From NCBI RefSeq assembly GCF_026210795.1, contig NC_089445.1:2170001-2234000 (forward strand): 64,000 nt of DNA, in the 5' to 3' direction. The position numbers were made by a program, and so were the translations under genes. The notes under the pieces are model-generated. The model was not told the origin of the DNA. It ran no database searches and was given only the letters and a program-made list of their open reading frames with translations. Each line of letters opens with the position of its first letter. Positions within the stretch are counted from its first letter, which is position 1. Positions 29,448 through 59,420 of the stretch are shown in pieces. The stretch is from Rhizophagus irregularis (taxonomy: Eukaryota > Glomeromycota > Glomeromycetes > Glomerales > Glomeraceae).

Positions 29448-30541
29448 TATACGAGACTCTATTTACTTATAAGATAAGTTAAAGATGTGATCTGAATGAA
29501 ATTTTATAATCTATGATTTATCTGGATCAATTTAGATAATTATAGAATTAAATTTGCTATTTTAATAACTAGTAATTGTAGAAAAATGATCCAAAGTTCA
29601 TTAGATTCATTTTGATGCAATGATTTAAATAAGCTATTGTGCATCTTTGTACAATCACTACATTATTTACCATAAACCAAAAATTTAAAATTAATTCAGA
29701 TTATTCTATATTTAGTAAAAAGTTAAAAATTAGCATTTTTATTTACAATACTATACCATTTTACAATACTACACCATTTTATGTTTTGATAAATAACTTG
29801 CCATCCAGTAATTGTACAGAGATGTACAATAGCTTATTGGAATTATTACATAAATCTAATGAGTATTAGACTATCTTTTTATGATTATTAATTGCCAAGA
29901 TATTCATCAAATTATAAAACAGCATAATATTATTTGTATATATATAAAATATTAATTTTTCATGTTTTGACAAATATCTTAGCAACTAGTAATTGTAGAA
30001 GAATAATCTATCTAATGCTTATTAGATTTATTTCGATATAACAATTCAAATAAGCTATTGTGTATCTTTATATGGCAATTACTGAATATTGAATTATTTG
30101 TCAAAATGTAAAATATCGCAATATTATAAAATGAAAATACTGATTTTTAATAAAAAAATAATTTAAAGCTCATTAGATTTATTTTAATGTAACGATTCAA
30201 ATGGACTATTATATATCTCTGTACAATCACTACATATTTAAATAGATTAAACAAAATCCATTCAGATGATTTATTATCTATTTGATTTAGATGGATTGAT
30301 GAATGATCTGAATTTTCAGATTTCAGATTACATTTCTAAGATAGGTTACCTCCAGATCTAAGGTAAAAATCATATATAAAATTCTTTGCAAATCCTACTA
30401 TAAAAAAAATTTTATATTACATTATTATAATGTTTTTTCTTTTTAGCTAATTAACCAATAGAATTTAAGAAAAAAGTAAAGTAAAAATTATTAGTAAAGG
30501 GCCAATTTTCTATGATGACTTTTAGTATAAGGGGCGTGCCA
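29448..30541. mobile_element. MITE of the ACTTACTTATAAGATAAG family, interrupted
   Basis: Left piece (TTACTTATAAGATAAG near 29456) and right piece (30334-30541, with AACCAATAGAATTTAAGAAA and GGGCCAATTTTCTA) together match the intact copy at 57618-57843. The middle is a separate insertion. Outer ends are diverged, so the limits are approximate. Confidence 0.5.
29478..30333. mobile_element. Inserted element carrying about four dyad modules
   Basis: Both ends carry diverged inverted sequence (GATGTGATCTGAATG left, AATGTAATCTGAAATC on the other strand right). Inside, the block CTAGTAATTGTAGAA ... TTCATTAGATTCATTTTGAT ... ATAAGCTATTGTGCATCTTT ... TGTACAATCACT recurs about four times near 29570-29660, 29780-29870, 29985-30080 and 30165-30235. 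It shares order and words with modules elsewhere in the window. The frame at 29639-29869 runs through it and is not taken as coding. Confidence 0.5.
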
Positions 30542-31170
30542 GAAATCAGCTGATTTCTCTCAATTAGTAGCCTCAGTTAACTCCTACCCCCACCTGATTG
30601 AAATCTGATTGGCTAAAAAAAATTATTACTATTAACTAGAGCTCCGAAAATGACTTGCATAAACTCACATTTTTGACTCATATAATTGTAAATTTTCGTT
30701 TAATTATATTCTAACTTAATAAAAAGTACTTTAAAATTAAGGTTTTTGACTTGTGACTCGACTCAACTCGACTCATTAGGAGCTCTACTATTAACTGAAA
30801 TATTAAATATTATATATAATAATTAGTATTATATAATGAATTATATTTAAAAACAAAAAATACTTAAACTAATATTGGAAGGACTTTGGTATATTGAATA
30901 TACAAAAGTCATAGAAGAAAAAAGACCTTTAATATAGCGAAGAGATATTTATTTTTAAATATATAGAAGTTTATTGGAGTCTATTTGGCTGGAATGAATA
31001 GATCTAATAGAATGGACAACATTAATATAAAATTTCATACAATGCTACATTTATATCGAACATTAGAGTACAGAATAACAATAATAATAACAAAGTTAGT
31101 TTAGAAAATATTGATAGTTTTTTACTTAATCAACGTATTAGATATGAGGAATAACAACAAATAGACTTAG
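30542..31170. other. AT-rich stretch, possibly 5' end of the LINE
   Basis: 30640-30790 has short CGACTCGACTCA words. From about 30840 the sequence may be the decayed 5' region of the LINE that follows (YIEYTKVIEEKRPL-like residues can be read near 30890), but no continuous frame supports it. Confidence 0.3.
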
Positions 31171-32170
31171 ACGCGTTATACCTTACGCTTCATGTTAGAA
31201 CTCACAACATTAATGAATTGGCAGGGAATAATACAAAACTATATAGAATATTAAATTGGATGCAGAAAAATTAAGTGGACATTATGGCTTTAAACGAAAC
31301 CAATTTAGACCAGAGAAACGGTTTTTTCAAAATACCTAATAGGTTTAAAGAACAGTTTCATATTTATTGGTTAAGTAAACAACATGACAAAAATAATAGA
31401 TCAGGAGTCACGTTAATATATTCAAGGAAATAGAACAAATATTATCAAGGACATAAAATCCATTCACCATATCTACTTTCAGTATACCTTTTATTTAGAA
31501 ATGTTTTGTTTTGTATCTGAATTGTTTACGCAGCATCACAAAAAAAACTAACAATCCTTTACAATACCCTTAAACAACTTGAAAAAGAAATGTGTGATAA
31601 AATTATAAGGAAAAAATCAAATAATATAGTACACATATTAATGGAAGACTTTAATTTGATTACAAACGGTCATATAGATCGAACTCCATTACAACTAAGG
31701 TTGCTTGCCGAAACCTAGGGGTTTAGGCAAGATAGCGTTTCGCCGAAAAGCGAAATTCTGCCGAAACTATATTAAAGTTATATTAAAAAACTGGCGAAAC
31801 TTTGGAGAAAGGCGAAACTGCCGAAACTTATTATAAATGCCGAAACTGCTGAAACTCTGCCGAAACTATAATAAATTTATAGTAAAATTTTGATGAAACC
31901 AATCGTAGGATTTTGAAGAGGCTTAGACAAGCAACCTTAATTACAACATATCTCAAGACCCAAATTTTTTAACGATCTTGAGACACTAGGTTTTATAAAT
32001 TCATATAGGAAACTTAATAAAGAGAAACTAGGGAACACTTGTCACAAAGAAGGTGTTAGCATGAGAATAGACCAAATTTAGGTATCAGAAACCACAGTAA
32101 TAAACTGTTAAATTTTTCAATTACTTCTTCAACGTTCATCATAAGCAGTGACTACGATATTATTACATTA
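31171..32170 (+). pseudogene. LINE endonuclease domain, decayed
   Basis: Residues such as THNINELAGNN and DIMALNETNL (31205-31305), HILMEDFN (about 31635-31658) and MRIDQI (about 32060) give the ordered motifs of an exonuclease-endonuclease-phosphatase domain, which nicks target DNA to prime reverse transcription. Several stops (for example near 31267 and 31430) and the hAT-like MITE at 31696-31939 inactivate it. Confidence 0.75.
31696..31939 (+). mobile_element. hAT-like MITE, 244 bp, 8-bp TSD (copy B)
   Basis: Termini TAAGGTTGC ... GCAACCTTA with the perfect 8-bp repeat attacaac at 31688-31695 and 31940-31947. The interior is rich in GCCGAAACT words, the complement of those in copy A (28981-29225). 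It interrupts the LINE endonuclease after the DFN motif. Confidence 0.88.
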
Positions 32171-32173
32171 ACT

Positions 32174-33090
32174 ATGGACACCTCAGTCTTCATACGGAAT
32201 AACAGGAAAAATATGATATATGATAAATTACCTACTGATAATGCCTACACCAGAGTCATATATAATTGTGTTAACATCAAAATAGAAACGTGGGATAACT
32301 TCTGGCTTAATATAAAAAATCAACTAAACAATCTTGATCAAAATTTTCTCAAAGATAATGTCAACTTAGCGGAGTATTTCCAGGAAGATATAGATAGATA
32401 TTGGGAAAAACTTAACGGCATTATAATAAATGCAGCAGATATAGAACTCTCTAGGAAAGTTCTCAGGCTCCATAATACCTTTAAATGGTTTAACAAAAAG
32501 AAATTGAGACCAGAATGACATATAAATAAATTGCTTCAATTATTACATAACTATTACTATGACAGCCAACGAATGCTCACAAATGAGGATGCCAAATCCA
32601 AATGGACAATTAAAATTGCCAAATATAATCAAAACTATGTTACATCAACTGACAATAACAAGTGTAACATAGACACACATGATATATTTTCAGAAAAATG
32701 GTTTGACACTCTTAAAACAAAAGTGAATTATCACTTAAGAGCAGATTACAAAAAATATAAATTAGCAGAAACGAAGTCCATTAAAGACAAAATAGATAAA
32801 TGAGTAGAAATTACATGAGAAGATCAAACAACATGGCTGTCAAACTTATTAGATAGAAACACTCACATTAATATAATTATAGATAATGTGCTAGTAAACG
32901 AGGAACCAGGAATTTTAACTAAAAGACTGGCTACAGAACTGGGTGAAGTTAAGAAAGCAGTGGACAATAATTTCGTGAGAATGTTTAGAAAAAGAAACAC
33001 ACTACTGGAAACAATGACACCGCTTTGGCAACAAATTTACGAATTCACAAGTAAATTCAAAGAGACGATGACCTATCAATATGTATAAGA
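32174..33090 (+). pseudogene. LINE linker between endonuclease and reverse transcriptase
   Basis: Three consecutive frames of 114, 90 and 66 codons (32174-32518, 32531-32803, 32888-33088), separated by single nonsense changes. Content (SDYDIITLTMDTSVF just before, then WDNFWLNIKNQL, LSNLLDRNTHINIII) fits the helical region between endonuclease and fingers domain in LINE proteins. They look like separate small ORFs but are one decayed protein. Confidence 0.65.
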
Positions 33091-33935
33091 TCACTAAAGA
33101 AGAATAGAACAAGACAGTTAGAGAATTAAATAAAAAGTCAGCTGCAGGGTTATCTGGTATTAATTATAAAATTATTACACAATTACCTGAGGAATTAATC
33201 CTCCTTTTAGTCAAATTCGGAAACTTGATGCTACAAATTGGACTTGTACCCATGGCATGGAAATCATCAGTCATTCTCCCCATACCTAAGCCCATCAACT
33301 TTGAATATAACATTCTGAATACTCGACCTATTGCTTTGTTGGATTGTTTTTGAAAAACTTTTACAAAGATGATCACGAACAGGTTGAGCTCTGTATTGAA
33401 ATGATATAATATACTTCAAGGCTACAACTGTTGTGGTTTACTAGGAAAATGCACAAATGAACCAATACACCTAGTCAACAATTTTATTGAGGACGCTAGG
33501 GAAAATAAAAAGAAACTATGGGTCCTCACACAGGACATGAAAAAAGTGTTTGATTCAGTTGGGTTGGATGTTTTAAAACCATGCTTTGCTTTGTATAGAC
33601 ATTCCAGCGTTGTTGCCCTATAAAAAATATGTATACGGTTTTTATACTGTATATATGTATTTTTGATACAGTTTGCATTTTTACATACGGCATATCAGTA
33701 TAATGTATACTGTTCGCAAAATGTGCTTAGTAAAAAATACAATAAAGTATACGGTAAACATACTGTGTGATACGGTATATTAAATTCATACGTCTATAAT
33801 GTATATCATTTCTACTGTATATCAGTATTTTGTATACGGTTCACAAAAATATTGTAAATAAAGGATACAGTATACATATTATTCTACAGTATATTAAAAT
33901 TTATATGTTTATAACGTATTTTCTACAATATACAC

Positions 33936-36057
33936 AGGTCAAATAAATAAAAATCAGATTTTTGCCCTTTTTAATATGGCTGTCTGATTTTTTGGCAATT
34001 TTAATATAATATTTCCGATTTTAATAAATATTTCTGATTTTAATATAATATTTCTGATTTTTAACATGAAATTGCCGATTTTTGGTTATTTGTAATAGGA
34101 TTTTTTGATTTTAATATATAACATGTGATTATGTATTACGGTTTAATATTTATTTATTAACTTAGATTTTTTTTTTATTTCAGTTATAATTATTTTTTTG
34201 CCTTAAAAACTTTACTAAAATACTTTTTAAATACTTTATAAAATAGAATTAAAATATTTTTTTTCTTAAATATAAATACATTTAAATTAAATAACTCATA
34301 ATTTAAAATATAAACAAATATTATATTTTTTTTACATATATTTCAAAGTATGGTTTGAGCATTTTGGTTGAAGTAAATCTTATTCTTTTAATTAAAAGTA
34401 GTTTAGTAAGTTTAAAACTGTTAAGATCATAAAAGTACAGTTAATATTTTTGGAATTATTTACATTTTTTATATTATACAGTAGTATTAAGTTACAAATT
34501 TTTTTACCTTCAGAGCGTATTTTGAGATCTTTAGCCAAAGTAAATCAACTTCTTATATTAATTGTAAGTTGTTCGGCAGGTTAAAATCTACTTGGATATT
34601 AATTTTCACGAAGGTACAGTTAATACTTGATGAGATATTTACAATTTTCACAACAGTACTCATTCATGACTTTTATTTTTTTCATTTTGTCACTTCAGAG
34701 CGTATTTTGAGCACTTTATCCAAAGTAAACCAACTTCTTATATTAATTGAAAGTTGTTTAGCATGTCAAATTCTACTTGAATATTAATTTTCACGAAGGT
34801 ACAGTTAATACTTGATGAGTTATTCACGATTTTCACAATGGTACTCATTACGAATTTTATTTTTTTCCGTTTTGTCACTTCAGAGCGTATTTTGAGCACT
34901 TTAGTCAAAGTAAATCGACTTCTTTTATTAATTGAAAGTTGTTTAGCATGTCAAAATCTACTTGAATATTAATTTTCACGAAGGTACAGTTAATACTTGA
35001 TGAGATATTTACAATTTTCACAACAGTACTCATTCACGACTTTTATTTTTTTCATTTTGTCACTTCAGAGCGTATTATGAGCACTTTATCCAAAGTAAAC
35101 CAACTTCTTATATTAATTGAAAGTTGTTTAGCATGTCAAATTCTACTTGAATATTAATTTTCACGAAGGTACAGTTAATACTTGATGAGTTATTCACGAT
35201 TTTCACAATGGTACTCATTTACGAATTTTATTTTTTTTCATTTTGTCACTTCAGAGCGTATTTTGAGCACTTTAGTCAAAGTAAATCGACTTCATTTATT
35301 AATTGAAAGTTGTTTAGCATGTCAAAATCTACTTGAATATTAATTTTCACGAAGGTACAGTTAATACTTGATGAGTTATTCACGATTTTCACAATGGTAC
35401 TCATTTACGAATTTTATTTTTTTCCGTTTTGTCACTTCAGAGCGTATTTTGAGCACTTTAGTCAAAGTAAATCGACTTCTTTTATTAATTGAAAGTTGTT
35501 TAGCATGTCAAAATCTACTTGGATATTAATTTTTACGAAGGTACAGTTAATACTTGATGAGTTATTCACGATTTTCACAACGGTACTCATTTACGAATTT
35601 TATTTTTTCCATTTTGTTACTTCAGAGCGTATTTTAAGCACTTTAGCCAAAGTAAATCGACTTCTTTTATTAATTAAAAATTGTTCAGCAGCTTAGAATC
35701 TACTTGAATATTTATTTTAATGAAGGCACAGTTAATATTTGTGGAGTTATTAATTTTTTATAATTGTGCGTATTACATTAAATTACAAGTAAATTTATAT
35801 TCTTAATGTATTTTGTTTAAAATTTAATTATTTAAGATTAGTTTTTTATTTAATATTGCTTAATAAAATATTTTTTAAATTTTAATTCAATATTACAATA
35901 TAATTTTTTATAAAAATATATATTTCATAATGTATATACAATTTTTTTGTATAATGAAAAAACTGAAAAATGTGGTTAAGAATTGGTAATACGGCTGTAA
36001 AAAGTCACAAATCGGACAAATATAGCTAAAATCAGCCAATTTTTATTTATTTGACGT
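33936..36057. mobile_element. Nested element with CAGGTCAAATAAATAAAAAT termini, holding a satellite
   Basis: Inverted ends: CAGGTCAAATAAATAAAAAT left, CACGTCAAATAAATAAAAAT on the other strand right. Sub-terminal CCGATTTT/CTGATTTT words repeat about eight times on the left (33950-34130) and recur at the right. Its centre is the 185-bp tandem array at 34340-35760. No ORF of note. A target duplication was not resolved. Confidence 0.65.
34340..35760 (+). repeat. Satellite, 7 well-conserved units of 185-186 bp plus one decayed unit
   Basis: CAGAGCGTATT occurs at 34511, 34696, 34881, 35066, 35252, 35438 and 35623, spacings 185, 185, 185, 186, 186, 185. Units also share ATTAATTTTCACGAAGGTAC and ATGAGTTATTCACGATTTTC. 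A diverged unit precedes (about 34340-34510). Frames at 34569-34787 and 35496-35696 are the same repeat read through and are not genes. Related by sequence order to the 184-bp block at 8.77-9.40 kb. Confidence 0.88.
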
Positions 36058-36235
36058 GTGATAGAGTAAGTTTTTCTACACTTTAAAGCATCAAACAATA
36101 CTAGTATCTGCTAATATGTACTACCCAAAAACTCACCGATGTAAAATCACAATTATTAAAAAATTCACAAGAATTTTTGTTAATACTGTTTAATTTTTAA
36201 GTTCAAAGTCCGATTGATAATACTAAATTCAAAAC

Positions 36236-36510
36236 TCAATTATAAATCATTTTTATAAATTATAATTTAAAAATTAAGCAGTATTAAGGAAAATTCTCAT
36301 GAATTTTTCTTAATACTACTTAATTCTAATTTAACTAATTTAGTATTAAGGTTTTAATTTAAAAATTAAGCAGTATCAAGGAAAATTCTTGCAAATTTTT
36401 CTTAATACTGCTTAATTCTAATTTAACTAATTTAGTATTAAGGCTTTAATTTAAAAATTAAGCAGTATCAAGGAAAATTCTTGCGAATTTTTCTTAATAC
36501 TGCTTATATC
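36236..36510. repeat. Tandem palindromic repeats of about 90 bp
   Basis: Unit: AATTAAGCAGTATCAAGG, a short loop around TTCTTGCGAA, CTTAATACTGCTTAATT, then a spacer TAACTAATTTAGTATTAAGG. Three units here; each arm pair can fold into a hairpin. Confidence 0.75.
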
Positions 36511-37127
36511 TGCCAATTCGTGAAATTAGCCAAACATAAAGATTTGCACATTTTAACAAGAATTATATTTCACAAGCTTAAATTGTATGTGTTACATAAT
36601 CAGATGATCTAAATCTATCAAAAAATAAAAAAAAATTTTTTAACGTTTATTCAAAAATAACAATGGCAACTACTTTCTTTTTCAATCACTTTTCAATTAC
36701 TTTTCAATCAGATTTTTGTTAGGTGACTTAGAAAAGTTTATAAGCATATATAGCAGGTTTTTTTTAATCAGTAAGTAAGAAAACAAATATTAATAATTTT
36801 TATTAATAAGAAAAATCTTTTTTAATTTATTTTTAACCTTATTTCCTTCTTTTTTTTAGTAAAAATATATACAAAATAAAAATGTGAGTTATGATTTAGA
36901 GTTTTTGAGATGTTTTTTTTTGTTTTTTACTATACTAATTTTATTCTACTTGTTAATTACTTTTTAAAATTGATTTTATTAATTTATTCAATTTAAAACA
37001 GAAATGGCAAATAAAAACTTGTTAAGTAAAGTAAAAAGAGCCCAATAATACCTGTAAAGATCATCTTTTGGTAAGAATTATAATTTTAAAAATTTTTGTG
37101 TCAGAGTTTTATTCGATTAACAAAATC

Positions 37128-37408
37128 GTTAATATCTCGGCGTACATGTATGCTAAACACATATATTTATATTCATATGAAAGCCCAGAATCTACTCTAC
37201 CTGAACGAAAAAAGATTATTCAAATTGAATTACTAGATGTGAAGATATTAACGATCAAAGTCAAAGGTTAAAAATAAATATATTGAACGTAATTATTCAG
37301 CAACTTGTGATCCAATTCACGTGATATTTGGTTTATGGATAGCTCTTGATTACCTCTTTCTAATGAATATAAATTCATTCGTCTAGTACACATACACGTT
37401 AAGTTATT
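37128..37408. repeat. Two dyad modules inside the 5.5-kb element
   Basis: Module 1 (37128-37252) begins GTTAATATCTCGGC and ends, in inverted form, GAAGATATTAAC, with TACTAGATGTG and ATATTCATATGAAAGCC inside. Module 2 (about 37285-37408) begins AACGTAATTATTCAGC and includes TTGTGATCCAATTCACGTGA, ATAGCTCTT and ATGAATATAAATTCATTCG. Frames at 37068-37271 (+) and 37268-37489 (-) run through them; in-frame stops in sister modules argue against coding. Confidence 0.65.
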
Positions 37409-37599
37409 CAATATTTTGTCATGACAATTATATTTAAATTTTTTAATTTTAATGTTATTATTAAAAAAATCAAAAAATAATATAATCAAATCAATTTTAT
37501 TTATATCAGCGGTGTGAATCTATCATTTTCATGTAAATTGTATTAGCATTTTCTTAATAAAGTTAGTTTTTTGAATATAAAAACTTAATTCCATAAATC

Positions 37600-37870
37600 A
37601 GTCCATATGTTAATTCTAATTTAACTAATTTAAGTAGTATTAAGGCTTTAATTTAAAAATTAAGCAGTATCAAGGAAAATTCTTGCGAATTTTTCTTAAT
37701 ACTGCTTAATTCTAATTTAACTAATTTAATATTAAAGCTTTAATTTAAAAATTAAGCAGTATCAAAGAAAATTCTCCCAAATTTTTCTTAATTCTAATTT
37801 AGCTAATTTAGTATTAAAGCTTTAATTTAAAAATTAAGCAGTATTAAGAAAAATTTTTACAAATTTTCTT
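37600..37870. repeat. Second block of the palindromic 90-bp repeat
   Basis: Same AAGCAGTATCAAGG / CTTAATACTGCTT unit as 36236-36510, about three copies. The dyad modules lie in the 1.1 kb between the two blocks. Confidence 0.72.
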
Positions 37871-38760
37871 ATTAAAAAAAAGAACTTTTAAATTACTAAT
37901 TAAACTTTAAAAACAATCTGTATGATTTAAATTTTTAAAAAAATACTTCTGCTTTTTAATTTTTGCATTTCTACATTTAACCAATTAAAATTCAGCTGAT
38001 CGCTGATCACATGCATTAATAACACGTTATTGTTTATTTTTTTATTTATTTTTTCAAAAATATTCTTTTCTCTTCTTTTTTTTAGAAAAAAAAAGACAAT
38101 AAAAATGAATACCAAAATTATTTTAACATATAATAATAAAAATTAAATAAAAAACTTATTTTGATAATATATAATATATATATTTGTACCAAACTACTAA
38201 TTATACAAAAAGTGATATGCACGTATATCAATTAACAATTACTTTCACTAATATCTCTCTGGAATTGTAATGGTGAATTTTAACAATATTAATTAAACAA
38301 CTATATGTACACCGTTTTATGTTTTTATTTTTATATTAATATTATATATTAACATATATTAATTATATTTTTTTTTTTACTTTTATGTATTTTATTTGAT
38401 TTTTTTAATATATTACTAACATTACTACTATCGTTTTATTACTTTTTTATATCTAACTAATATATTAATAATATTACTAACTTTTTATTATTTCTTTTTT
38501 ATATTTAAAATAATGATAATATTACTAATTAAATTTCTTTTTTTTACTAACCTTTTATTATTCCTTTTTTATATTTAAAATAATGATAATATTACTAATT
38601 AAATTTCTTTTTTTTTGTTTATATTTTGCTAATATTATTTTTTTTACAAATAGTATATTATTTTATACTAGATTTTTATTTATATTATTTATAAAAAAAT
38701 ATTTGTATATTTAATATTATTTAATAAAAATTTTATTGATTATAAATGCATTTTAAATTC
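37871..38760. other. AT-rich interior of the 5.5-kb element
   Basis: Non-coding. A unit of about 65 bp ending ATAATGATAATATTACTAAT is duplicated near 38485 and 38550. Beyond 38760 the TATACGGT/ACTGTATA sub-terminal array starts. Confidence 0.5.
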
Positions 38761-39276: not shown

Positions 39277-40384
39277 CACTCCCCTACAATAAATTACCGA
39301 ATTTGACAAAATTTACATAGCAATTTTCACGTTGCATATAAATTTACGAATTTTTAATAAAATTCAGCCAGAATTTTTTTATTTGAAAGTTGATCGTAGA
39401 TAGTTTTTATGTATCAAAATAAATAAATATGATTAATTATAAATATAAAAAAGTTTTCTCATTGCAAAATAATATAAAAAATTATGAAATTCTCACTTTT
39501 TTTCAGCAATGGGTCAACTTTTTAAAATTTTAGAAGGACCCCGGATATCTCCAAAACAGGTCATAAGTCACACTTTCGGCAGATTGGCCCATTTTTCAGG
39601 GGCTCAAAAAATCGTTTTTTGTAAATATCTCGGCATCCAGTGGTCCAATTTTGATGAACTTTTTTTAAATTGTAGAGCTAAATGAGGGCTACAAAATAAA
39701 AAAAAGTTCATTAAAATTGAATAACTGGATGCTGAGATATTTACAAAAAAACGATTTTTTGAGTTTCAGCAAAAAGGGGTGTTTTTGGCCAAAAGTCCAT
39801 TATGACCTTTATATTAGATATCCGGGGTCCTATTTTAGAAAATTTTCTTTATTTTTTAATACATGAAAGCTACAATTGATTGGCTTTCAAATAAAAAAAA
39901 TTTGACTGAATTTTATTGAGAATTCATAAAGTTTCATATAGCCCAAAAATCAACAATTTTACTAGTAAATCTTATAAAAATTTGTAATTACATAGTAAAA
40001 TTAACAATAATTGACAAATTTTAGTCTATATGAAACTTAACGAATTCTCTACAAAATTCAGTCAAAATTTTTTTATTTGAAAGCCAATCAATTGTAGCTT
40101 TCATGTATTAAAAAATAAAGAAAATTTTCTAAAATTTTAAAAAGTTGACCCATTGCTGAAAAAACTGAGAATTTCATAATTTTTTATATTATTTTGCAAT
40201 GAGAAAACTTTTTTATATTTATAATTAATCATATTTATTTATTTTGATACATAAAAACTATCTACGATCAACTTTCAAATAAAAAAATTCTGGCTGAATT
40301 TTATTAAAAATTCGTAAACTTATATGCAACGTGAAAATTGCTATGCAAATTTTGTCAAATCCGGTAATTTATTGTAAGGCAGTG
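39277..40384. mobile_element. Foldback element with hairpins within hairpins, TA target site
   Basis: Ends CACTCCCCTACAATAAATTA and, on the other strand, CACTGCCTTACAATAAATTA, flanked by TA (39275-39276; 40385-40386). The arms pair over about 250 bp (CAGCAATGGGTCAAC near 39510 with its complement near 40150). A second inverted pair (about 39840-39960 with 40015-40130) and a third complete palindrome (39603-39763, a dyad module) lie inside. No transposase. It splits the LINE reverse transcriptase. Confidence 0.8.
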
Positions 40385-40690: not shown

Positions 40691-41961
40691 TTGAATTAGG
40701 TTGAGATCGTTCCATAGTTTAAGTCATAGATGATGAAATAAGATATCTTAGGGTCTGGTTTTCCAACAAACCAAATAGGAGAAGATAGATGCAACACCTA
40801 TCCACGATAATAAAAAATTTTTGCGACACAGTCTATAGGAAGTTTGTTCCAGCTGGTCAATATATTTACCTAATCAATAGAGTATTAATACCTAGACTGA
40901 TATATATAGCTTAAATCATAACATTGACAGAGCAAGATTGGAATCACGTATTCGCTCCATTAATGAAGTTGGTTAAAAACTGGATGAAATTACCTAAGAA
41001 CACACCTTCGTCACTAATATTTTATAAGGGGTATCTCAGTATGGACCATCTATAGAAAATATTTTGTATCAATACTATATGATAACAGAATTAACAATTA
41101 GACTGAATAGTGATTCACATGTAGCGATATCTACACATATCAGACTCAGAGATGCGCAGCTTAAATCACTGATTATAGATCCAATTTTTGACTGTGATCT
41201 TCACATAATGCCTTAAATAAAAATTCAAACTAGGAAAAACGTCTCATTTAATGCATTAGTAATAACTAAAGCTCTCGATATATCAATGGCAACGAACCTG
41301 ATTGATAGATCAACCTGGAGTGTTTCAGGAGAAAAAAAGCTGTTATTAAAATTCTTTAAACAGTATCAGCTTACAAAATATATTTTCTGGATTAACCAAA
41401 GCTCACATTACCTGATATTCTATATTGATCAATTGTTTATTAAAGGTATATATCTTATGACATAGAAGCAATACTGTAGATTAGCATTACTCCCAATACA
41501 AAAAAGGGTAGCTAGATAGTATCGTGATGTGGCTCATTTGTGCACATCCAGAATAGATAATATGACAATAATTGATGATATGGAAATTGCTGAAGTTGAT
41601 CATTGAGCCTTTTTACTGGATATCATACTGGACGTGCATCGCAAACAAATTATTTTTATTCGAAACTTTCAATGACTCAGATGTATAGTCATTAGGCAAA
41701 ATTAATAAGATACGCTATTATGAACAGGGGATTATAGTGAATTATCATCTGGAATATAATGATAATGAAACAATTGGCTGGCAGGATATGGGACGATCCA
41801 TACCAGCTCATTGCTGTAAAGTGGCAATATTAGATAAAAAATCTAACATGTGCGGCTGGAGTTTTTCTAATGAATAGCTATCATCAACCTATCAATTTAA
41901 CGTTATAATACCTGATGACAAGTTACCAACATCAGCTTTAAATCCCATAATTAGCCTACTA
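40691..41961 (+). pseudogene. LINE connection region between reverse transcriptase and RNase H
   Basis: Fragments in all three frames read as LINE thumb/connection sequence, for example VWFSNKPNRR (about 40752), YLINRVLIPRL (about 40868) and WNHVFAPLMKLVKNWMKLPKN (split here for length; about 40939-41000). Heavily broken; no activity expected. Confidence 0.5.
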
Positions 41962-42507
41962 ATGGTCCAAGACATATGGATTCACAGATGGATAGATGAT
42001 GATAACCTGAAAATGCAACTAATGGATATTAGAAATATACTGGCAGAGAGAACAATGGTAGAATATTATATAGATGATTCTCTCAGGCCAAACACTTTTA
42101 CAACAATGGGTAAACAAGATCCTAATTTAGTGTACACAGACATGGGTGCAGCGTTTTGTATTAATAATGAACCTGCATTGTCAGCCCAAGTAAATGTATC
42201 ATTATGGCCTTCATCTACACATTCAGAATTAGTGTCTATATTTCTAGCATTATTCACAGGTCCTATAAATGCAAAAATCAAGATTTACACAAACAGTCAA
42301 AGCACCATATACATGATAAACAATCAACATAATAAATCAGGCAGAAAATTATTGAAGCAATCTAATTCTTTAATATTACTTAAGATAGATATTCTTTTAC
42401 AAAAAAAAAAATAGATCTAGTATTAGTGAAAGTTAAGAGACACAGTGGAGATGTTATGAATGAAATGGTAGATGATTTAGCTAAGAATACAAGTAACAGC
42501 AGATGAT
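41962..42507 (+). pseudogene. LINE RNase H domain, frameshifted
   Basis: A 150-codon frame holds YIDDSL (position of the usual Thr-Asp-Gly-Ser first catalytic Asp), WPSSTHSELVSIFLAL with the catalytic Glu, and KIYTNSQSTIYM, where the usual Asp is Asn. The end, LVKVKRHSGDVMNEMVDDLAK with the last His/Asp region, is in another frame after a run of ten A at 42401-42410. Changed catalytic residues plus the frameshift mean it is inactive. It would degrade the RNA strand of the RNA-DNA hybrid in an active LINE. Confidence 0.8.
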
Positions 42508-42882
42508 ACTTTAACAACAGGTTTAACTATAGCAATAGGACAGTTAGATTTTTTCTAATTTTTAAACAGATTCCAATTGAATACAACTTAAAAAAATTTA
42601 TCAAAACTCTAATGAATACCAGAGTAGCAGCAGAATAGTCAATGCTAAAAACCAATGGACATGAAATACCAATTGCCTGGAACATAATTTGGAACTTAAT
42701 TCATAGATATAAAGGGTTTAATTGTATTTCAATTAAAAAACATTGGCATTTAATATTTATTATTAAACTATTCATTAAACTTCTCCCTATAGGTACCACT
42801 CTTATACAATGAAAACTAAATATATACAAAGATTTTGTTTGTCCCAGGTGTAATGATAATAAAGAAGAAGACATATATCATT

Positions 42883-44081
42883 AAAGCTCCTAACGGTTCG
42901 AGCTAAACTGAAGAACTGATCTAAAACCGGCTCAAAATTCAGTTTAGTTCAGTTCGGGTATTAGAACCAAAAAACCAGCGGTTCAGTTTGGTTTAATCTG
43001 ATTTTTTATAAAAATGTGAAAAATCAAATAGCCGCCCATCTAGTGATCGTACAAAGTTGAGCCATATATTATTGGATTCGTCTTGACGAGACGCGTCGAA
43101 TGGTGGTAAAATCATATCTCTAGCATTGATAGATCACATGTTAACCCACACTAAATGATTTATCAATAATTGGAATTATCAAGCTATCTATCAATGCTAG
43201 AGATATGATCTTAGCGTCATTCAACGCGTCTCAGTGAGATGAATATAATGAATATAAATTCGTCTGTGTACGACTACTGAATGGCGAATAATGTCAAGTT
43301 TCGCATTTTTTTAAAATTTTCAAGCGTTAAAAATTAAAAATTCTGATACATGAATTTATTTGTCATCCAATGGTTGTACAAATATGAATTAAAACTCATT
43401 GGATTCGTCTCGATGAAACGAGTCGAATGGTGGTAAGATCACATCTCTAGTATCGATAGATAGCTTGTTAATGCCAATTTTTTATAAATCATTTAGCGTG
43501 AATTAACTTACGATCTATTGATGCTAGAGATATGATCTCACACCATTCGACTTGTCTTATCGAGACGAATCTAATGAGTTCTAATTCATATTTGTATGAC
43601 CATTGAATGACGAATAAATTCATGTATCGGAATTTTTAATTTTTAACGTTCAAAAATTTTAAAAAAATGCGAAACTTGACATTATTCGCCATCTAGTGGT
43701 CGTATGCAGACGAATTTATATTTATTAGATTCGTCTCACTGAGACGCGTCGAATGACGCTAAGATCATATCTCTAGTATTGATAGATAGCTTAATAATTC
43801 CAATTATTGATAAATCATTTAGTGTAGTTTAACGTATGCTCTATCGGGGATGCTAGAGATATGATCTTACCACCATTCGACGCGTCTCATCGAGACGAAT
43901 CCAATGATATATGGCTTGACTTTGTACGATCACTAGATGGGCGGCTATTTGATTTTTCACATTTTTATAAAAATCAGATTAAACTGAACTGAACTGCCAG
44001 TTTTTTGGTTCGGTTCTTACGGATTTTGACTCTAATCCAAACCGTCTATAATCCGGACCAAACTGACCTGTTCAGAGCTTT
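42883..44081. mobile_element. Foldback element of 1.2 kb with 10-bp TSD, four dyad cores
   Basis: Flanked by the perfect 10-bp repeat atatatcatt (42873-42882 and 44082-44091). Ends are AAAGCTCCTAACGG and, on the other strand, AAAGCTCTGAACAGG. Each half is several hundred bp of near-complementary arm, and GAGACGCGTCGAATGGTGG-like cores occur four times (about 43085, 43215, 43400 and 43550) with further copies near 43740 and 43880. A 9-10 bp duplication fits Mutator-like mobilisation. It splits the C-x2-C from the H-x4-C half of the LINE's zinc knuckle. Confidence 0.82.
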
Positions 44082-44091
44082 ATATATCATT

Positions 44092-45425: not shown

Positions 45426-46135
45426 TAAAAAAATAGATAAAATTATCCACTTTCTAAGAAATGGTACAATCATACCAATTTCATCAGTTTGTATTTAAGA
45501 TAAACTTTGTACTAGCTAGTATTGTAATAAATAAATTTTATTAAAATAATTTTAAAAGATACTGAAAAATGGTTTACTTTTTATTTATTATTTAAAATCG
45601 TCAACCAATAAAAATTGCAAAATTGTGAGTTACTATCTGAATCTGATCTAAATCCAATTTAAATTTGATTTGACCTGAAATTAGATTTGAATCAGATTAA
45701 ACAAATCAGATTCAGATTTTAAATTTGGATCTGCAAATCGGATTCAGATTTCAAATATAAATCTGAATCTAATCTGAACTGATTCATGCAGAACCCTAGC
45801 TACCTGATATATTAGTTTTTGATCAGTGGAAATAACAGGGATGTTAAGGTTTAAATTATAATTTACGTAATTGTAAAAGTAAGATTCTTAGTAAAAGAAA
45901 TTAATATTGTATTTAGATAATTATTAGAATTTTAGTTCAATTATAATTTATTAATAAAAAATAAAATTTACTGTAATACTGCGATTATTGCGATATGATC
46001 ATGTGATTTATTTATACTAGTAAAATCAGAAATTTTTATATTTAAATTGTTAAAATTATTTTTACTATTTCAGTAATAACTTTTTTATTTTGGCAAATAA
46101 TTTGAGTTTAATAATAAAATATATTATTTATACAT
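45426..46135. other. AT-rich stretch with AATCAGATTCAGAT words
   Basis: 45630-45790 repeats AAATCAGATTCAGATTT in many overlapping forms on both strands, a simple-sequence island. The rest shows nothing recognisable. Confidence 0.4.
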
Positions 46136-46926
46136 GAAACCGAAATTGGTTAATTTTGACCTCCGAAATGGTCGAAATGGTCGAAATGATTTCGACTTGA
46201 GCCCCTCCAAAAGTCGAAATGGTCGAAATTACGTCATAGTCATATGATTTTATAGTAAACAATAATATTAAAATTCAAAGTTAACGAACTCCGCATCCAG
46301 TGATTCGATTTTTATGATCTTTACACGGTTGGATTCAGCTCATCGAGAGGATTCCAATGATATATATTTCATATTTGTAGCATCAATATTGACGGAGTTA
46401 TTCACGTTTAAAATTTGGTATTAAATAGTCTTATAATTATTATAGTAAATAATAATTTTAAAATTCAAAGTTAACGAACTCCGCATCCAGTGATTCGACT
46501 TTTATGATCTTTACACGGTTGGATTCAGCTCATCGAGAGGATTCCGATGATATGTATTTCATATTTGTAGCATTAATATTGACGGAGTTATTCACGTTTA
46601 AAATTTGGTATTAAATAGTCTTATAATTTTTATAGTAAACAATAATTTTAAAATTCAAAGTTAACGAACTCCGCATCCAGTGATTCGATTTTTATGATCT
46701 TTATACGGTTGGATTCAGCTCATCGAGAGGATTCCAATGATATGTATATCATATCTGTACCATCAATATTGACGGAGTTATTCACGTTTAAAATTTTATA
46801 TTAAATTATAATTATAAAAATCATATGACTATGATGTAATTTCGACCATTTCGACTTTAATTTCGACTTTTGACCTTCCCAAGTCGAAATATTTCTACTT
46901 TTGGGCTTTAATTTCGACTTCATATA
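46136..46926. mobile_element. Inverted-repeat element with GTCGAAAT termini
   Basis: The left 130 bp and, on the other strand, the right 130 bp share ATGAARYCGAAATT, repeated AAGTCGAAATGGTCGAAAT, and CATAGTCATATGATTTT. Between them lies a 3-unit tandem array of the dyad module (46262-46800). No ORF. Target duplication not resolved. Confidence 0.7.
46262..46800 (+). repeat. Three tandem dyad modules, 190-bp period
   Basis: CCGCATCCAGTGATTCGA occurs at 46291, 46481 and 46671 (spacing 190). Each unit reads GTTAACGAACTCCGCATCC, then ATGATCTTTAYACGG, TTGGATTCAGCTCATCGAGA, GGATTCCAATGATAT and ATTGACGGAGTTATTCACG. The units are nearly identical. Both ends of each unit are inverted versions of a TAACxxxCTCCG-like word. 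Confidence 0.88.
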
Positions 46927-46965
46927 TAATATTATTCAGTTATAAAATACAAGTTTATTTCATTT

Positions 46966-48042: not shown

Positions 48043-48059
48043 ACAAGTTTATTTCATTT

Positions 48060-48443: not shown

Positions 48444-48525
48444 CAGTTAACTCCCTCTATAGTCACTCTCGTTATAATCACATTCTACTATATAGTCACA
48501 CCAGTTGAATATTCAAAATACTTTA

Positions 48526-48692: not shown

Positions 48693-48814
48693 TTATTATT
48701 AAAATCTATCCTATATAGTCACAATCTATCTATAGTCACTATTACACATATTCTCAAAACTCTTATATTAAAAAGAACCGTTTATAATCATAGTTATATA
48801 AAGAATATATTAAA

Positions 48815-49420
48815 TAACTTGGCATCTAATAATTGTACAAAGATGTATTATAGCTTGTTAGAATTATCTCACTGAGACAAATCGAATGGTGGTAGTTTTA
48901 TCCTTTTACGATCACTGGCTGACGAGTTATTCAACAAAATGTTAAAAATCAGCATTATAATATTTCTTAATTTACGTTTACTGCACCATTTAACATTTTG
49001 CTAGATTTCTCAGTACTTAGTGATTGTAAAAAGACGATTTATAGCTCGTTGGAATCGCCTCATCAAGACAAATCGAATGGTAATAAGATCATCTCTCTGT
49101 GATCAATATTGACGGAGTTATTACTTAAAAACCATTTAATATTTTTTAATTTTAGAAATTGATCTAATGATTGGATTTCGATGTATCTTATACCATTAGA
49201 TTTGTCACATCAAGACGAATCGAATGGTAGTAAGATCATTTTTCTAGGATCAATATTGGCAGAGTTATTTCACAAAAACCATTAATATTTTTTAATTTCG
49301 GAAATTAATATAGTGGTTGGATTTTGATATATTTTATACCATTAGAACTGTCTCATCAAGTCGAATTGAATGGCGGTAAGATCATCTCTCTACGATTAAT
49401 ATTGGAGAAGTTACGATACA
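48815..49420 (+). repeat. Four tandem or near-tandem dyad modules
   Basis: Cores CTCACTGAGACAAATCGAATG, CTCATCAAGACAAATCGAATG, CACATCAAGACGAATCGAATG and CTCATCAAGTCGAATTGAATG (split variants of one word; near 48868, 49048, 49205 and 49350) each follow a CATCTAATAATTGTACAAAG-like or decayed half and precede GTAAGATCATCTCTCT. Two are followed by GATCAATATTGACGGAGTTA or a near copy. Confidence 0.7.
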
Positions 49421-49771
49421 ATAAAGTTTTAAGTATAATTCTGGCTAAAATTATGTTAATTTTTGGCCAGAATTATGATATACAAATATAAGAAATTTTT
49501 TATATAGTCACATCTCTTTATAATCACCAAATATGGACTGTCCCAAATGTGTGATTATAAAGAGAGTTGACTGTATTTAAAACTTATAAAATAATTAAAA
49601 TATTATTATATGATGTTATATTTAAGATATTTATTGGATTATTTAAATAATAAAATTAATAGAAAATGTAGAAATATATTATATATAGAGAAGTAGTACT
49701 ATAGTCTGTAATATATAGTATAATAAAAAAGAATAATGAAAAGATTATATGATAAAAATATATTATTATTA

Positions 49772-49939: not shown

Positions 49940-49941
49940 TA

Positions 49942-54177: not shown

Positions 54178-54931
54178 CACTGGTAAAAAAATGGTCTATC
54201 CTACACATATCCTACACATATCTTACATATATCGGGTACTCAAAATGTAGAAAATCATACACAAATAATACACATATCATACACATATCGGGTACTTATA
54301 TATGTTGTGCCTCAGATCGATTCTTGCCTCAGATTGAAGCTCACGCACCTCAGTTTGAGATTGTCATCTGACGCACCTCAATTGCTAATAAAAATGAGCT
54401 ATAATTAAACATCAAAATTTCCAATTTTAATGTATTTTTAAGTACTAAGTAAACTTATTTATCATTATTTTAAGTATACAATCCTAAAATTTCAGATTAA
54501 TTAGAATCATGCTCATTAAATCTTTTCATTTGAAAAATGACTTAAAATTTAATGATTTTTCAGATAAAATACAAGTATAAACTTCAATATGAATCAGATT
54601 TACATAAAGATTTCAGGAAACATGTAACTCATTATGGCGCACAAGTTTGTTTATGTTACAAAAAGTGGTTTAATTATTGAGAAAAAAAGTTTACTTATAA
54701 CAGACTTTATTGAATGATTCTAAATGAGGTACGCATGACAATCTCAATGTAGTCGTGAGCTAATCGAGGCATGAATCGATCTGAGACGTATATATAGTAT
54801 ACCTATCGTGCATATATGTATGATATATATATAGTGCGATATATAATATGTATTATTTATATATGATTTTCTACATTTTGATACTTGATATGTGTAAGAT
54901 ATGTGTAGGATAAATCATTTTTTTACCAGTG
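54178..54931. mobile_element. Foldback element with CACTGGTAAAAAAATG termini
   Basis: Ends CACTGGTAAAAAAATGGTCT and, on the other strand, CACTGGTAAAAAAATGATTT; TTTT on both sides. The outer arms repeat TACACATATC words for about 110 bp. A second inverted-repeat element is nested at about 54297-54798. The flanking host sequence TTTTTCCTAAAAAAATTT is present on both sides as an older duplication. Confidence 0.75.
54297..54798. mobile_element. Nested foldback of the TATATATGTTGTGC family
   Basis: The left arm (TATATATGTTGTGCCTCAGA, GCACCTCAGTTTGAGATTGT) and right arm (other strand: GTCTCAGATCGATTC, GAGATTGTCATGCGTACCTC) pair over roughly 120 bp with mismatches. The family is the same as 56157-56680, with CCTCA words where that copy has GCGTCA. 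Confidence 0.55.
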
Positions 54932-56156
54932 TTTTAGGAATTCTACACAATTCTAAATATAATCATATATTTTTCCTAAAAAAATTTTCTAATTCAGTAA
55001 AATTATTCCTAAAAATTAGGATTTTTTTTAGGAAAAATACATATATAAGCTAATAAATTATTATTAAATTAACTTTTTTTTATATGTAATTTATATATAT
55101 ATTTTAATAATCACTAGTATTACAATTTTTTATATTTCACATAATTTAAAATTAATTAACACTTTATTGTAAAAAATGTAAAATTTATTATATGATTGTG
55201 ATAATTAGTAAATCATTGTATAATTATATTTAATAGTAATAATCAGATTATATAAAAAATTAAAAATATGCAACTAACAAATATTTTACATTAAACTGAA
55301 CTTTAAACCTTACTTAAATATTATTTATTAAATCTACTATGTCAATTAAGATTTAGTTATTATTTTTTTTATCAATTAACTTAGCTTTATATTGCTTATA
55401 TCCTTTAATATTATGCTTTTTTACAGAAATAACTATAGATTTTAGAAGATAAAAATATATATTGATTATTATTCTCTTTAGTTAATAATTTATATTATTT
55501 TAAAAGATAATTATTTGGCTTGTAATATTTTAAATTTAATATTTTTTTCCATTTTAATTAAAAGTTATTACTAGTGATTGTAAAAAAATTTTTGAATTTT
55601 ATTATTAAAAGTGATATAAAATGAATTTCTTTTATATTTAATCCAATATTAGTATAATAAAATTTTATAATAAATTGTGTAAAAAGTCCAATCAATTCTA
55701 GTATAATATCTTTTACTATAGCAATTTGGATACTTATTTTTATGTTTTTTACTTCAAATCACCGGGGGTGAGTATCACCGTTGGCCAGAATTATCAAATT
55801 TTACTGGCACTCTATTTTTTTAATGCTGGTCGATCGTCATAATTTCAGTCATCAGTGATCATCACCCCCGGTGATAGTTAGAAAAATTCTATTTTTATTA
55901 TTAATATTGTAAAATTAAATTCAATTTTATTAGTTTTCTTTAATATTTAATATATAAATATTTGCAGTTCAAATTTGATTAATAGTATAATATAAAACTT
56001 TAGTGATATAATTTTTATTTTCTTAAGTAATTATAATATAATTAGTTATTTTAGTTAGTATTGATTCATACCAATATAAGAAATAAAACTTATATAAAAA
56101 ATTGCTTTATTAAAAAAAAGAGATATTGATATTAATATGATATTTTTTAATTGATA
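54932..56156. other. AT-rich non-coding stretch
   Basis: Nothing coding. Contains the small palindromic element at 55757-55878. Confidence 0.5.
55757..55878. repeat. Short palindromic element, TCACCGGGGGTGA ends
   Basis: ATCACCGGGGGTGAGTATCAC at the left pairs with the complement of GTGATCATCACCCCCGGTGAT at the right, 120 bp overall. The centre includes GGCCAGAATTAT. The boxes resemble the termini region of the element at 10049-10715. Confidence 0.6.
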
Positions 56157-56680
56157 ATATATATATGTTGTGCGTCAAGTGTCGATTTGCGTCAGATGCA
56201 GCTGACGTGCGTCAGATGTAAATTGATACTTGACGCGCGTCACTTGAATCACACAATAAAGTTCTCCTATGGTAAAAAAATTTTTTTTAATAATAAAATT
56301 ATTTTTTATTACGTAAGTAAATTTGTTTGTTACAATAAATTACACATATTGTGAAATTTTATGGCTATTTAATCTATGTTTAATTAAATATTGTAAATTT
56401 ACTTGAAAAAACTTGTAATTTATTAATATTTTGAATGAAGTATTTTCCATATGAAACTGAGTCTAATCAATTTAATATTACAGGGTTATATATTTTTTAA
56501 CAAGATTAATAAACTTATTTAATAAAGAAATTTAGTTTAAGTTTGAAAATTTTAATTTAATTATAACTTAATTTTGCATATTTTATATTACAAGTGACGC
56601 GCGTCAGGTATCAATCTACATCTGACGCACGTCGGCTCATCTGACGCAAATCGACACTTGACGCACAACATATATATATA
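56157..56680. mobile_element. Foldback element with GCGTCA-rich 100-bp arms
   Basis: Arms TATATATATGTTGTGCGTCA and the identical sequence on the other strand at the right pair almost perfectly for about 100 bp. Each arm has five or six GCGTCA/TGACGC words (for example TTGACGCGCGTCACTTG). The centre is AT-rich. The 67-codon frame across the left arm is not coding. Confidence 0.75.
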
Positions 56681-57500
56681 AATAAAATTGAATTTTTAAA
56701 ATTACTATAAAATACAGTATAATATGCAGTAGATAAATGTTGATGATATTATAATGATATAATAAACCTCTTATATTTCTTAAATTTTTTTACTGTTTAT
56801 ATAGTATTTATATAGTATTTATATTTAATAAAAGATTTTGTAATCTAATTTACTATTTATTATATATACATTCAATTATACCATTAGATTCATTATTAAA
56901 TTCTTAATTAAATTAATATTTTTTAATATACCGTATTTCTTCAAAAATAAGCAACTTATTTTTGTTATAACATTGTTTATTTTCAAATAGTTTAGCTTTT
57001 TTAAAATTCATAGCTAAAAGTTTAAATTTCGTATTAGTAAAAAGATTAAACAATATAACTCCTGTAATTACTGATCATTTAACATGACTTCTGTGATCAT
57101 TAATCATTTAACATACATTATGTAAAAGTTGCAATACCTGTTTTACTATGCCAATTACTACACCAAGTGCAACAAATAAAAAATGCTAAGAAAAGTTGCT
57201 TATTGTAAGGTAAAACAAGTTGTTAAATGTAAAAAAACCTTATATTCTATAAAACAAAAGATAGAGGTTATTAAATATGCAGAGGAATATGAGAATAATA
57301 AAGTAGTAGAACATTTTGATATTCATTATAATATGGTAGGACGTTGGGTAAAAGCAAGTTTGACCTGGAATATTAAAACTAATGGAAAAAGTAAGCAAGT
57401 TAGTTTTGATCAAAAAGCATTTTTTCCCAATATTAAAAAAGACTGTATAATTAAATAATTAAGTAAAAGAAGCAAGGTCTAGTTGTATCATATATAATTA

Positions 57501-57906
57501 CAGTCAAACCTTGATATAGCGAACTCTTGATATTGTGAATTTTTCAGACAACTATAATAAATTTCCCTTTACTATAACGAATTAACCAATCAAATTACTT
57601 AAAATCTTCACTATAGCAGGACCCCACTTACTTATAAGATAAGTCACCTCCAAGCCTAAGGTAAAAATTATATATAAAATTCCTTGCAGATCCTACTATA
57701 AAAGAAAATTTTATGTTACATTGTTATGATTTTTTTCCTTTTTAGCTAATTAACCAATAGAATTTAAGAAAAAAGTAAGGTAAAAACAATTAGTAAAGGG
57801 CCAATTTTCTACAGTGACCTTTATTATAAATAAGTGGGATCCTACTATAGCCCTATAGTGAAGTTAAGGTCTAGAACCTAGGGTTCGTTATAATAAGAGT
57901 TGACTG
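57501..57906. mobile_element. CAGTCAAA MITE inside the pogo-like element, itself interrupted
   Basis: Ends CAGTCAAACCTTGATATAGC and, on the other strand, CAGTCAACTCTTATTATAAC; TA on both sides (57499-57500; 57907-57908). Without the insertion at 57618-57843 it matches 49772-49939. Confidence 0.85.
57618..57843. mobile_element. hAT-like MITE, 226 bp, 8-bp TSD
   Basis: Ends AGGACCCCACTTACTTATAA and, on the other strand, AGGATCCCACTTATTTATAA; perfect 8-bp repeat actatagc at 57610-57617 and 57844-57851. Interior AACCAATAGAATTTAAGAAA is shared with 30334-30541. Third level of nesting (pogo, then CAGTCAAA MITE, then this). Confidence 0.88.
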
Positions 57907-58739
57907 TATATGAAATAAAATATTAAAAATTTTAAGAAAGATGTAAATTCTAAAACTTTATAGAGAACTTACAGAAAATTTTAAAACTTCTTATTATTGG
58001 TTAATAGGATTTTTGAAAAAATACAAATTGGTATTGAAACACTAGAATTTTCTAAAAATTCTATCCTAAGTAAAATTCAAGAACAGTTGAAGAAATTCAA
58101 TTAATTTGTAACTAACTTTAAAATCAAAAAATCCTATGAATTGGAAAATATTTTCAATATGGATGAAACACCCATTTAGTTTGATATAGCTGGCAACTTT
58201 ACTATAAATCCAAACTCCAAAGGGTGAAAAAACAGTTCATATTCATGCAACATGTAATGAAAAAAATCAGTTTACCATCATTTTAACATGTATCATAAGT
58301 ATAATGATTTGCTACTTTAAATCAAATTTATTAAATTGCAATATCATAGATGTGACCAAACTACTATCTTCAAAGAAAATGAATGTTGCGTAATAAACAA
58401 ATTCCTTCTGGTGTTGTAATTTAGTTTCAAGAAAATGGTTGGATGGATTCAAGTTTAATGTTAAAATATATTGATTACTTCAATGATATAAGGTTAAAAA
58501 ATGATACTCAAAGAAATCTAGTAATATTAGCACATAATTCATTTAAAGATCATTTGGAAGGATCCATATGAGCCGATCCTTGGAATCTAATTTTTTTACA
58601 CAAAAATAATTTTATTAAAGCAAATATAAATTATCATTTATATAAGAATAATAAATTTATACTAGATAATGCAAAAAAAACTAATTAATTATATAATTTT
58701 TAATTTTTTTTTAATATAAGATATCATTAAAATTTAAAA

Positions 58740-59420
58740 GATCAAATATAACTCTCATGACAAAATCATTGATAATTCTTCGTAGAAATAAGCTATACAA
58801 ATAAATTTACATTCATTTGAAAGAGAAAATCGAGATCTATCTAATGAATCTAAAATCAAGTAAATTGAATCACTAGTTGTTCAGTAATCACGTTCAGTAT
58901 ATTTATTAAATTTTATCTAAATTTGATTATTAATTACTTCACATGTAGTGATTCAATTTGAATGATCTTTGCTCCCTAAGGTGATGCCAACTTTTATCTT
59001 TAAAATAAATTTAAAATAATTCGTTTAATATATGTAGATGTTTAGGAATCATCAATTATATTATTAATATAAAATTTTATAAATTTGATAAAATCTGATA
59101 TAAAAAAATTTATTAAATACCTGTAGATGCAAGCTACACGAATGAAATTATATTCATTTGAAAGAGAAAATTGAGGTCTATCTAATAAGCCTAAAATCGA
59201 ATGAATTGAATCAATGGATTGTGAATAATTACGTCTAATATATTTATTTTTAATTTTTAAATTTGATTTGACTTTGATCGTTAATTACGCCTCATCCAGT
59301 GATCCAATTTTCTTGATCTTTGATTCTTACGATAGAGCAAATTCTCAGCTTTCAAATGAATGTAAAATGATGACGTTAGCATATCTCCAGGAATAATAAT
59401 GCACGATTTTGTCACCTGCA
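58740..59420 (-). repeat. Array of dyad modules inserted in the transposase
   Basis: At least three diverged modules, mostly on the minus strand. Words: ACTAGTGATTCAATT and TTTCAAATGAATGTAAATTT (58820-58895 region), repeated near 59140-59230, and, on the plus strand, CATCCAGTGATCCAATTTTC, TTGATCTTTGATTCTTACGA and TTTCAAATGAATGTAAAATG (59290-59370). The 61-codon frame at 59281-59466 passes through one module and is not taken as a gene. Confidence 0.6.

Follow-up and report, generated by a model that had tools for sequence, protein, structure and literature searches.

A near-palindromic module common to short transposon families with different ends in Rhizophagus irregularis

The stretch analysed here, called the window throughout, comprises 64,000 nucleotides of the Rhizophagus irregularis genome (assembly GCF_026210795.1, contig NC_089445.1, positions 2,170,001 to 2,234,000 of the forward strand). 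It holds about 18 copies of a near-palindromic cassette of about 110 bp, hereafter the module, which is internal to many short non-autonomous terminal-inverted-repeat (TIR) transposons in this genome. The module is real, abundant and common to transposon families that are unlikely to have one transposase in common. Its core dyad is TTGGATTCGTCTC / GAGACGAATCGAATG and its outer ends resemble AATAWCTCGG / CCGAGWTATT. Thirteen copies at 43, 46 and 48.8-49.4 kb were observed to align from end to end, where those of the 43-kb site form nested inverted pairs and those of the 46-kb site a tandem array with a 190-bp unit (Table 1). A preliminary description of this DNA had given the module as an ordered set of words in at least seven elements. 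The words are present as described, several of them in only some copies. In support of the argument made there against coding, no open reading frame of at least 150 aa lies within the three firm window elements.

The module in the window and in the genome

A first profile, built from the 13 window copies, gave extra modules at 27.7 kb and at 29.6-30.2 kb, whereas ten control sequences yielded no E value better than 1.3. Because circularity was to be avoided, the profile was rebuilt from 46 modules located elsewhere in the genome, with none from the window; among 21 control sequences of 64 kb the top score was 9.5 bits. This leave-window-out profile recovers 13 of the 13 copies at 43.0-43.9, 46.3-46.8 and 48.8-49.4 kb (E <= 8e-18), four decayed copies at 29.6-30.2 kb (E 1.5e-9 to 3.6e-5) and the module at 27.7 kb, which was absent from the preliminary description (E 2.2e-9). 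Weaker matches above the best control were observed at 59.3 kb (15.5 bits), 58.8 kb (12.8 bits) and 39.6 kb (10.8 bits), where the last reaches only the outer arm and the core differs. Nothing was found by this profile at 37.1-37.4 kb, the best nearby score of 4.5 bits being below that of the controls.

The doubtful sites were also compared with the actual arms of modules from other places in the genome, four in all, with 20 shuffled windows as reference (maxima 31-38). The hairpin at 39.6 kb scores 48-58, well above the shuffles; the 59.3-kb site (28-41) is about equal to them and the 37-kb site (30-35) shows no clear excess. The TTGGATTCGTCTC core was not found at the 37-, 39.6- or 58-59-kb sites with up to two mismatches allowed. 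Taken together, the arm and profile scores indicate that the sites at 37, 39 and 58-59 kb share at most the outer arm and have other cores. Of the seven elements first proposed, three are therefore firm (43, 46 and 48.8-49.4 kb) and one is old (29.6-30.2 kb). The remaining three are of falling certainty: 59.3 kb is weak and above the controls, 39.6 kb has the arms only and the module was not found at 37 kb.

Genome-wide, over 146.7 Mb in 32 contigs, a search for the core dyad that allowed two mismatches at most gave 594 matches (312 forward and 282 reverse, where symmetric sites may be counted twice) and the reversed-pattern control gave none. A total of 185 matches cover at least 95 profile positions and are spread over 12 labelled groups, and one module of the 43-kb element alone has at least 223 matches. 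The module thus stands well above chance both in the genome and in the window, and the fall to chance level that would have spoken against it was not seen. Ten arbitrary 10-kb regions (100 kb) contained two modules, which corresponds to about 3,000 per genome, an estimate with a very large uncertainty. Compared with two per 100 kb of arbitrary sequence, the window is module-rich, having about 18. By eye, one of these two modules (L104) lies in the right half of an element of the 46-kb family that another repeat interrupts; the other (L071) is an old copy. Exact, and hence narrow, pattern searches for relatives gave no match in IMG/VR (a generalised arm pattern and two patterns of the module) or in prokaryote genomes (the generalised arm pattern). 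Words of a similar kind may occur in animal repeats, which would mean a wider spread.

Two features adjoin these sites. A 178-aa open frame (window 41878-42414, plus strand), RNase H-like by eye and without a Pfam match, lies directly left of the insertion at 43 kb. Short tandem arrays of a palindromic unit (AATTAAGCAGTATCAAGG...) flank the 37-kb stretch at window 36263-36506 and 37610-37873.

Table 1. Module copies, host elements and module-like stretches in the window; E values and bits refer to the leave-window-out profile
Feature	Position in window	Strand	Remarks
Host element fam43	42882..44082	.	termini TAAAGCTCC..GAGCTTTA; six modules as three inverted pairs
fam43 8-bp target duplication	42874-42881 and 44083-44090		TATATCAT
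Module 43a	43038..43143	+	E 1.8e-23
Module 43b	43177..43282	-	E 2.2e-18
Module 43c	43365..43470	+	E 4.2e-23
Module 43d	43504..43608	-	E 1.8e-19
Module 43e	43691..43790	+	E 3.6e-21
Module 43f	43830..43938	-	E 9.7e-22
Host element fam46	46129..46928	.	TIR TATACATGAA; 8-bp target duplication ATATTATT; three 190-bp units
Module 46a	46295..46400	+	E 1.7e-20
Module 46b	46485..46590	+	E 2.8e-18
Module 46c	46675..46780	+	E 2.5e-20
Host element fam49 (left end of window copy provisional)	48693..49575	.	right terminus GAGTTGACTGTA, TA type
Module 49-0	48824..48929	+	E 8e-18
Module 49a	49017..49120	+	E 2.2e-23
Module 49b	49162..49267	+	E 2.3e-23
Module 49c	49310..49413	+	E 9.5e-19
Decayed module	29566..29661	-	E 1.5e-9
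Decayed module	29803..29902	+	E 7.2e-7
Decayed module	29975..30086	-	E 3.6e-5
Decayed partial module	30170..30233	-	E 2.5e-5
Extra module, new to this analysis	27693..27798	-	E 2.2e-9
Weak module-like stretch, core different	59294..59405	+	arm CATCCAGTGATCCAATTTTCTTGATCTT; 15.5 bits; arm test 28-41
Weak profile match	58831..58876		12.8 bits
Strong hairpin, only outer arms common with module	39604..39762	.	folding z -18 to -20; arm test 48-58
Arm-like stretch, doubtful member	37125..37260	.	arm test 30-35; no profile match

Host families, their ends and target sites

Hosts were surveyed in 34 regions, picked for diversity from 100 listed core-dyad places, and in further loci from other searches. 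Once the modules are masked, the flanks divide these regions into five groups, with five singletons left over (L025, L031, L045, L053 and L054), of which L025 is by eye a truncated famA element and L045 has 15 copies in the genome. The families that contain the module number at least seven and differ in their termini. Target duplications of 8 bp are found in three of them, namely fam46 (TIR TATACATGAA), fam43 (termini TAAAGCTCC) and famA (termini TATAGTTGTTTCCGAAAT), and famB (termini TTCGTGATCCGCCAGTGAACC) has the target site TTAA. The TA-ending types are fam49 (right end ..GAGTTGACTGTA), famC (TACACATGCCGATCAAAATTATCCGG), L089 (TACAGATGGTGACC) and L054 (TACAGTCGCGTCGG). Terminal inverted repeats were found in fam46, fam43, famA, famB, famC and L054, and by eye in L089.

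The 8-bp duplications were tested with up to one mismatch allowed and with cross pairs of ends as control. They occur in 9/11 end pairs of fam46 (cross pairs 1/110), 10/24 candidate end pairs of fam43 (6/552) and 5/14 end pairs of famA (1/182), where the failing pairs of fam43 and famA were judged to have been mispaired from ends that are internal or due to chance. For famB, TTAA or ATAA was observed in 5/5 end pairs and in 12/20 cross pairs, the latter being high because the target site is fixed. When one element from each of nine families was compared with the modules masked, only three short cross-family matches appeared: one of 29 bp between the ends of L089 and famC (E 0.003) and two of 14 bp (E 0.02-0.04). 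Local alignment of the L089 and famC ends does not exceed shuffled sequence (24 vs 26).

Target sites of 8 bp, TTAA and TA demand different integration chemistry. From target-site type alone, we infer that the hosts belong to different transposase classes, which we take to be hAT-like (8 bp), piggyBac-like (TTAA) and Tc1/mariner-like (TA). Since the hosts differ in both termini and target sites, descent within one transposon family fails to explain the module, as the preliminary description had argued; confinement to a single family was looked for and several families with different ends were found instead. A role of the window copies as subterminal transposase sites was ruled out, since they are common to hosts of different target type. 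The hosts have the terminal inverted repeats, the target duplications and the small size and lack of transposase by which miniature inverted-repeat transposable elements (MITEs) are recognised. True host elements measure 419-1335 bp, so that fam43 and the long fam46 copies lie above the 1-kb MITE limit applied in PMC11075540.

Arrangement of modules and their probable passage between families

Modules are arranged in several ways. Direct arrays were observed in fam46, with a 190-bp step and one to six units, and in fam49 and famA, with a step of 146-147 bp; the window copy of fam49 has four modules, the last three spaced by about 146 bp. Inverted pairs with 31-39 bp between the modules are found in fam43, L054 and L089, while famC has pairs and famB single modules. 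A total of 26 famB copies align over the whole query, module included, and 9/9 fam46 elements carry one to three modules, even though these nine were taken from 40 flank matches chosen for having no module listed beside them.

The similarity between families extends beyond single modules. L041, a famA copy of the 8-bp type, is 71% identical over 415 bp to L016, a fam49 copy of the TA type, in an alignment that spans three modules together with the spacers and continues for about 65 bp, and L026 and L024 likewise share a block with 71% identity over 346 bp; a 491-bp match of these two in the modules-masked comparison falls outside the famA element. The transfer therefore seems to have involved blocks rather than single modules. 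When 47 representatives were placed in a tree, fam49 modules were found in several places and many deep supports were weak; one group of four fam49 modules is neighboured by famA and by a module of fam46 (support 0.955).

Furthermore, L054 has the appearance of a nest, in which one element lies within another, some of the outer sequence was lost and the composite then multiplied. Its family has 25 near-full-length copies with a second inverted repeat directly inside the outer ends, and this inner TIR resembles the ends of L089, a module element that occurs free, with a score of 29 (best of 500 shuffles, 24). Three relatives of the outer part (L092-L094) occur without a module. Relatives of famB with TTAA ends and no module also exist (L062-L064). 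These were considered as an empty-site system and rejected, being one arm in both orientations and not clean empties. Another form of association was noticed in five copies of a chimeric repeat (L057-L061), which start near ACTAGTTGTAGCCCGTCGCGCTGCGCCGGGG, have a common downstream flank and contain the right part of famB with only the module portion right of the dyad; this looks like capture by another element.

We consider it probable, with some reserve, that the module is an internal cassette shared across, and passed between, non-autonomous transposon families. It would not move alone and would travel with its host element, multiplying inside hosts through unequal exchange and snap-back. 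Blocks of modules might then pass between families by nesting of elements or by the gain of new ends. Of the possible routes, passage in blocks through nesting and the exchange of ends has the best support, to which any function of the module would be an inferred addition.

Constraint, competing explanations and related systems

In each of the seven families tested, lower variation was observed in those columns of the module that other families conserve (rho -0.25 to -0.50). When CpG-like contexts are left aside, the pooled counts are 170/6827 for conserved and 164/3044 for variable columns, with 7/7 families in the same direction. The conserved columns may point to a protein-binding role. The constraint is partial and at the level of sequence; it is compatible with a site for a dimeric protein and also with uneven mutation. 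We tentatively propose that a host DNA-binding protein may bind the conserved positions, the dyad fitting a dimer, and may aid any host element whatever its transposase. If the cassette does matter to all families with their different transposases, it must act through the host. A more doubtful extension is that the cassette is a 'public' cis-acting one, where the dyad-binding host protein would ease mobilisation or hinder silencing of the element, so that unrelated transposons would acquire, keep and trade it.

A number of observations weigh against a shared and functional cassette. Within host families the module is not significantly above its flanks in conservation: module and flank values are 0.783 vs 0.813 in famA, 0.731 vs 0.684 in famC (p 0.22), 0.747 vs 0.659 in famB (p 0.13; also 0.682 vs 0.704) and 0.777 vs 0.864 in L054 against L084, and the module is also less conserved in L085 and L087. 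L089 alone shows the module above its flanks, but these flanks are largely unrelated. The constraint is therefore only partial and uneven mutation could explain it. The sequence pairs in the column tests are not independent, and the CpG-like and transversion classes of fam49 show no difference. We know of no protein that binds the dyad. With respect to passage between families, no clean empty site was seen among the famB relatives, the L054 relatives and the nine fam46 elements examined. The module-free L054 relatives carry about 70-165 bp of other sequence at the module's place, which is therefore not a simple insertion, and the match of the L054 inner ends to L089 is modest. The similarity of spacers alone is mixed: scores as high were reached by 1-2/100 shuffles for fam49-famA and by 0/100 for famA-fam43, famA-famC, famC-L031 and fam43-L031, and fam43-L054 falls outside the 25 highest-ranking of 136 pairs. 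For the TA types, the duplication test provides no independent evidence: the values for fam49 (2/14, cross pairs 15/182) and L054 (0/5) are uninformative because the motif itself includes TA and the left end of fam49 had been misplaced. Finally, the four piggyBac-like loci examined, out of 22 transposase matches in the genome, contain no famB ends and no modules, and none of the four could be linked to famB as a partner; famB and L098 match over 27 bp (E 0.002).

The module could well be a neutral passenger, an inherited MITE filler spread by nesting and end swaps that has no function of its own, which differs from the shared cassette in the functional step only. The lack of excess conservation over the flanks favours such a passenger, as do the absence of RNA covariation described below and the free decay of the old copies at 27.7 and 29-30 kb. 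Against it, the same columns vary less in 7/7 families, also outside CpG-like contexts, and at least one module was kept in all nine fam46 elements.

It is unlikely that the module is an independent mobile unit, that is, a small palindromic transposon preferring other transposons as insertion sites. The unrelated ends of its hosts, its symmetric outer ends and the apparent nest of L089 in L054 would fit this, but neither a clean empty site nor a target duplication of the module's own was seen among the elements examined, and the module occurs in 9/9 fam46 elements. In addition, modules form regularly spaced arrays and pairs, and the block found in both famA and fam49 comprises three modules along with the spacers, unlike single insertions.

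A transcribed and folded module that feeds small-RNA silencing, as the preliminary description had suggested, appears improbable. Pairing across the dyad reaches 64.4% of cells in register and 33-44% in slid registers, some copies fold very strongly (z -21 in L023, -8 in the third copy of L026 and -18 to -20 in the 39-kb hairpin), and small RNAs at transposable-element loci of R. irregularis are reported in PMC8647823. However, column shuffles reach the five observed measures in 56 (pairing), 191, 132 (double changes), 103 and 23 (covariation score) of 500 trials; there is therefore no support for pairing kept by selection. The strand bias of the dyad is modest, with 240 G-U and 178 A-C among 2347 cells. 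Folding energies of 47 representatives have median z values of -1.9 and -2.0 on the two strands and lie below -3 in 12/47 and 11/47 (controls, 2/60 stretches), so that a few copies fold very strongly and most are unremarkable. No Rfam family matches the modules at the gathering score. As a separate observation, the module at L023:842-959 forms a 113-bp palindrome that is nearly perfect, which gives the impression that one arm is a copy of the other.

Derivation of all hosts from a single element with diverged ends is highly improbable: the 8-bp duplications common to fam46, famA and fam43, the three-module block of famA and fam49 and the 29-bp L089-famC match speak for it, but 8-bp, TTAA and TA sites require different integration chemistry and no further match above 14 bp links the nine families once modules are masked.

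The shared cassette may be compared with several known systems. Foldback and Galileo elements have long inverted repeats with internal repeats, which fam43 resembles; the module differs in being internal and common to elements of other target-site types. Rolling-circle elements such as Helentrons make no target duplications, whereas the module hosts are TIR elements with duplications. Non-autonomous Helentrons (CgHINE, DINE) are similar in that a mobile element disperses central tandem units (PMC9659126). The same paper describes MITE-borne tandem repeats, namely Xstir/Xmix and miDNA4 in Xenopus and HindIII and BIV160 in bivalve pearl elements, where likewise a unit within a non-autonomous DNA element is able to become a tandem array. 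In its table each such unit is tied to one element type, unlike the single near-palindromic unit found here across 8-bp, TTAA and TA families. Repeats carried within one transposon type are already known; here the same cassette is found in families needing different transposases. Literature searches that covered Rhizophagus (MITEs, palindromes, tandem repeats) and MITE-internal repeats gave no paper with the module named in its title or abstract opening.

This sharing raises the question of what the interior of a transposon is for. Two-thirds of the transposable elements of R. irregularis are given as unclassified in PMC11075540, and a classification based on interiors would mistakenly unite families that are kept apart by their ends.

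Other elements were noticed in the window. The one Rfam match is a U6atac minor spliceosomal RNA at window 19375-19511 on the plus strand (79.9 bits, gathering score 33), and a minor spliceosome is therefore probably present. Tandem arrays with a period of 185 bp are located at window 34508-35751 (6.7 copies) and 8844-9324 (2.6 copies). At window 56200-56637, a 59-bp inverted repeat (AGCTGACGTGCGTCAG...) with 86% complementary arms 320 bp apart is likely to be another element.

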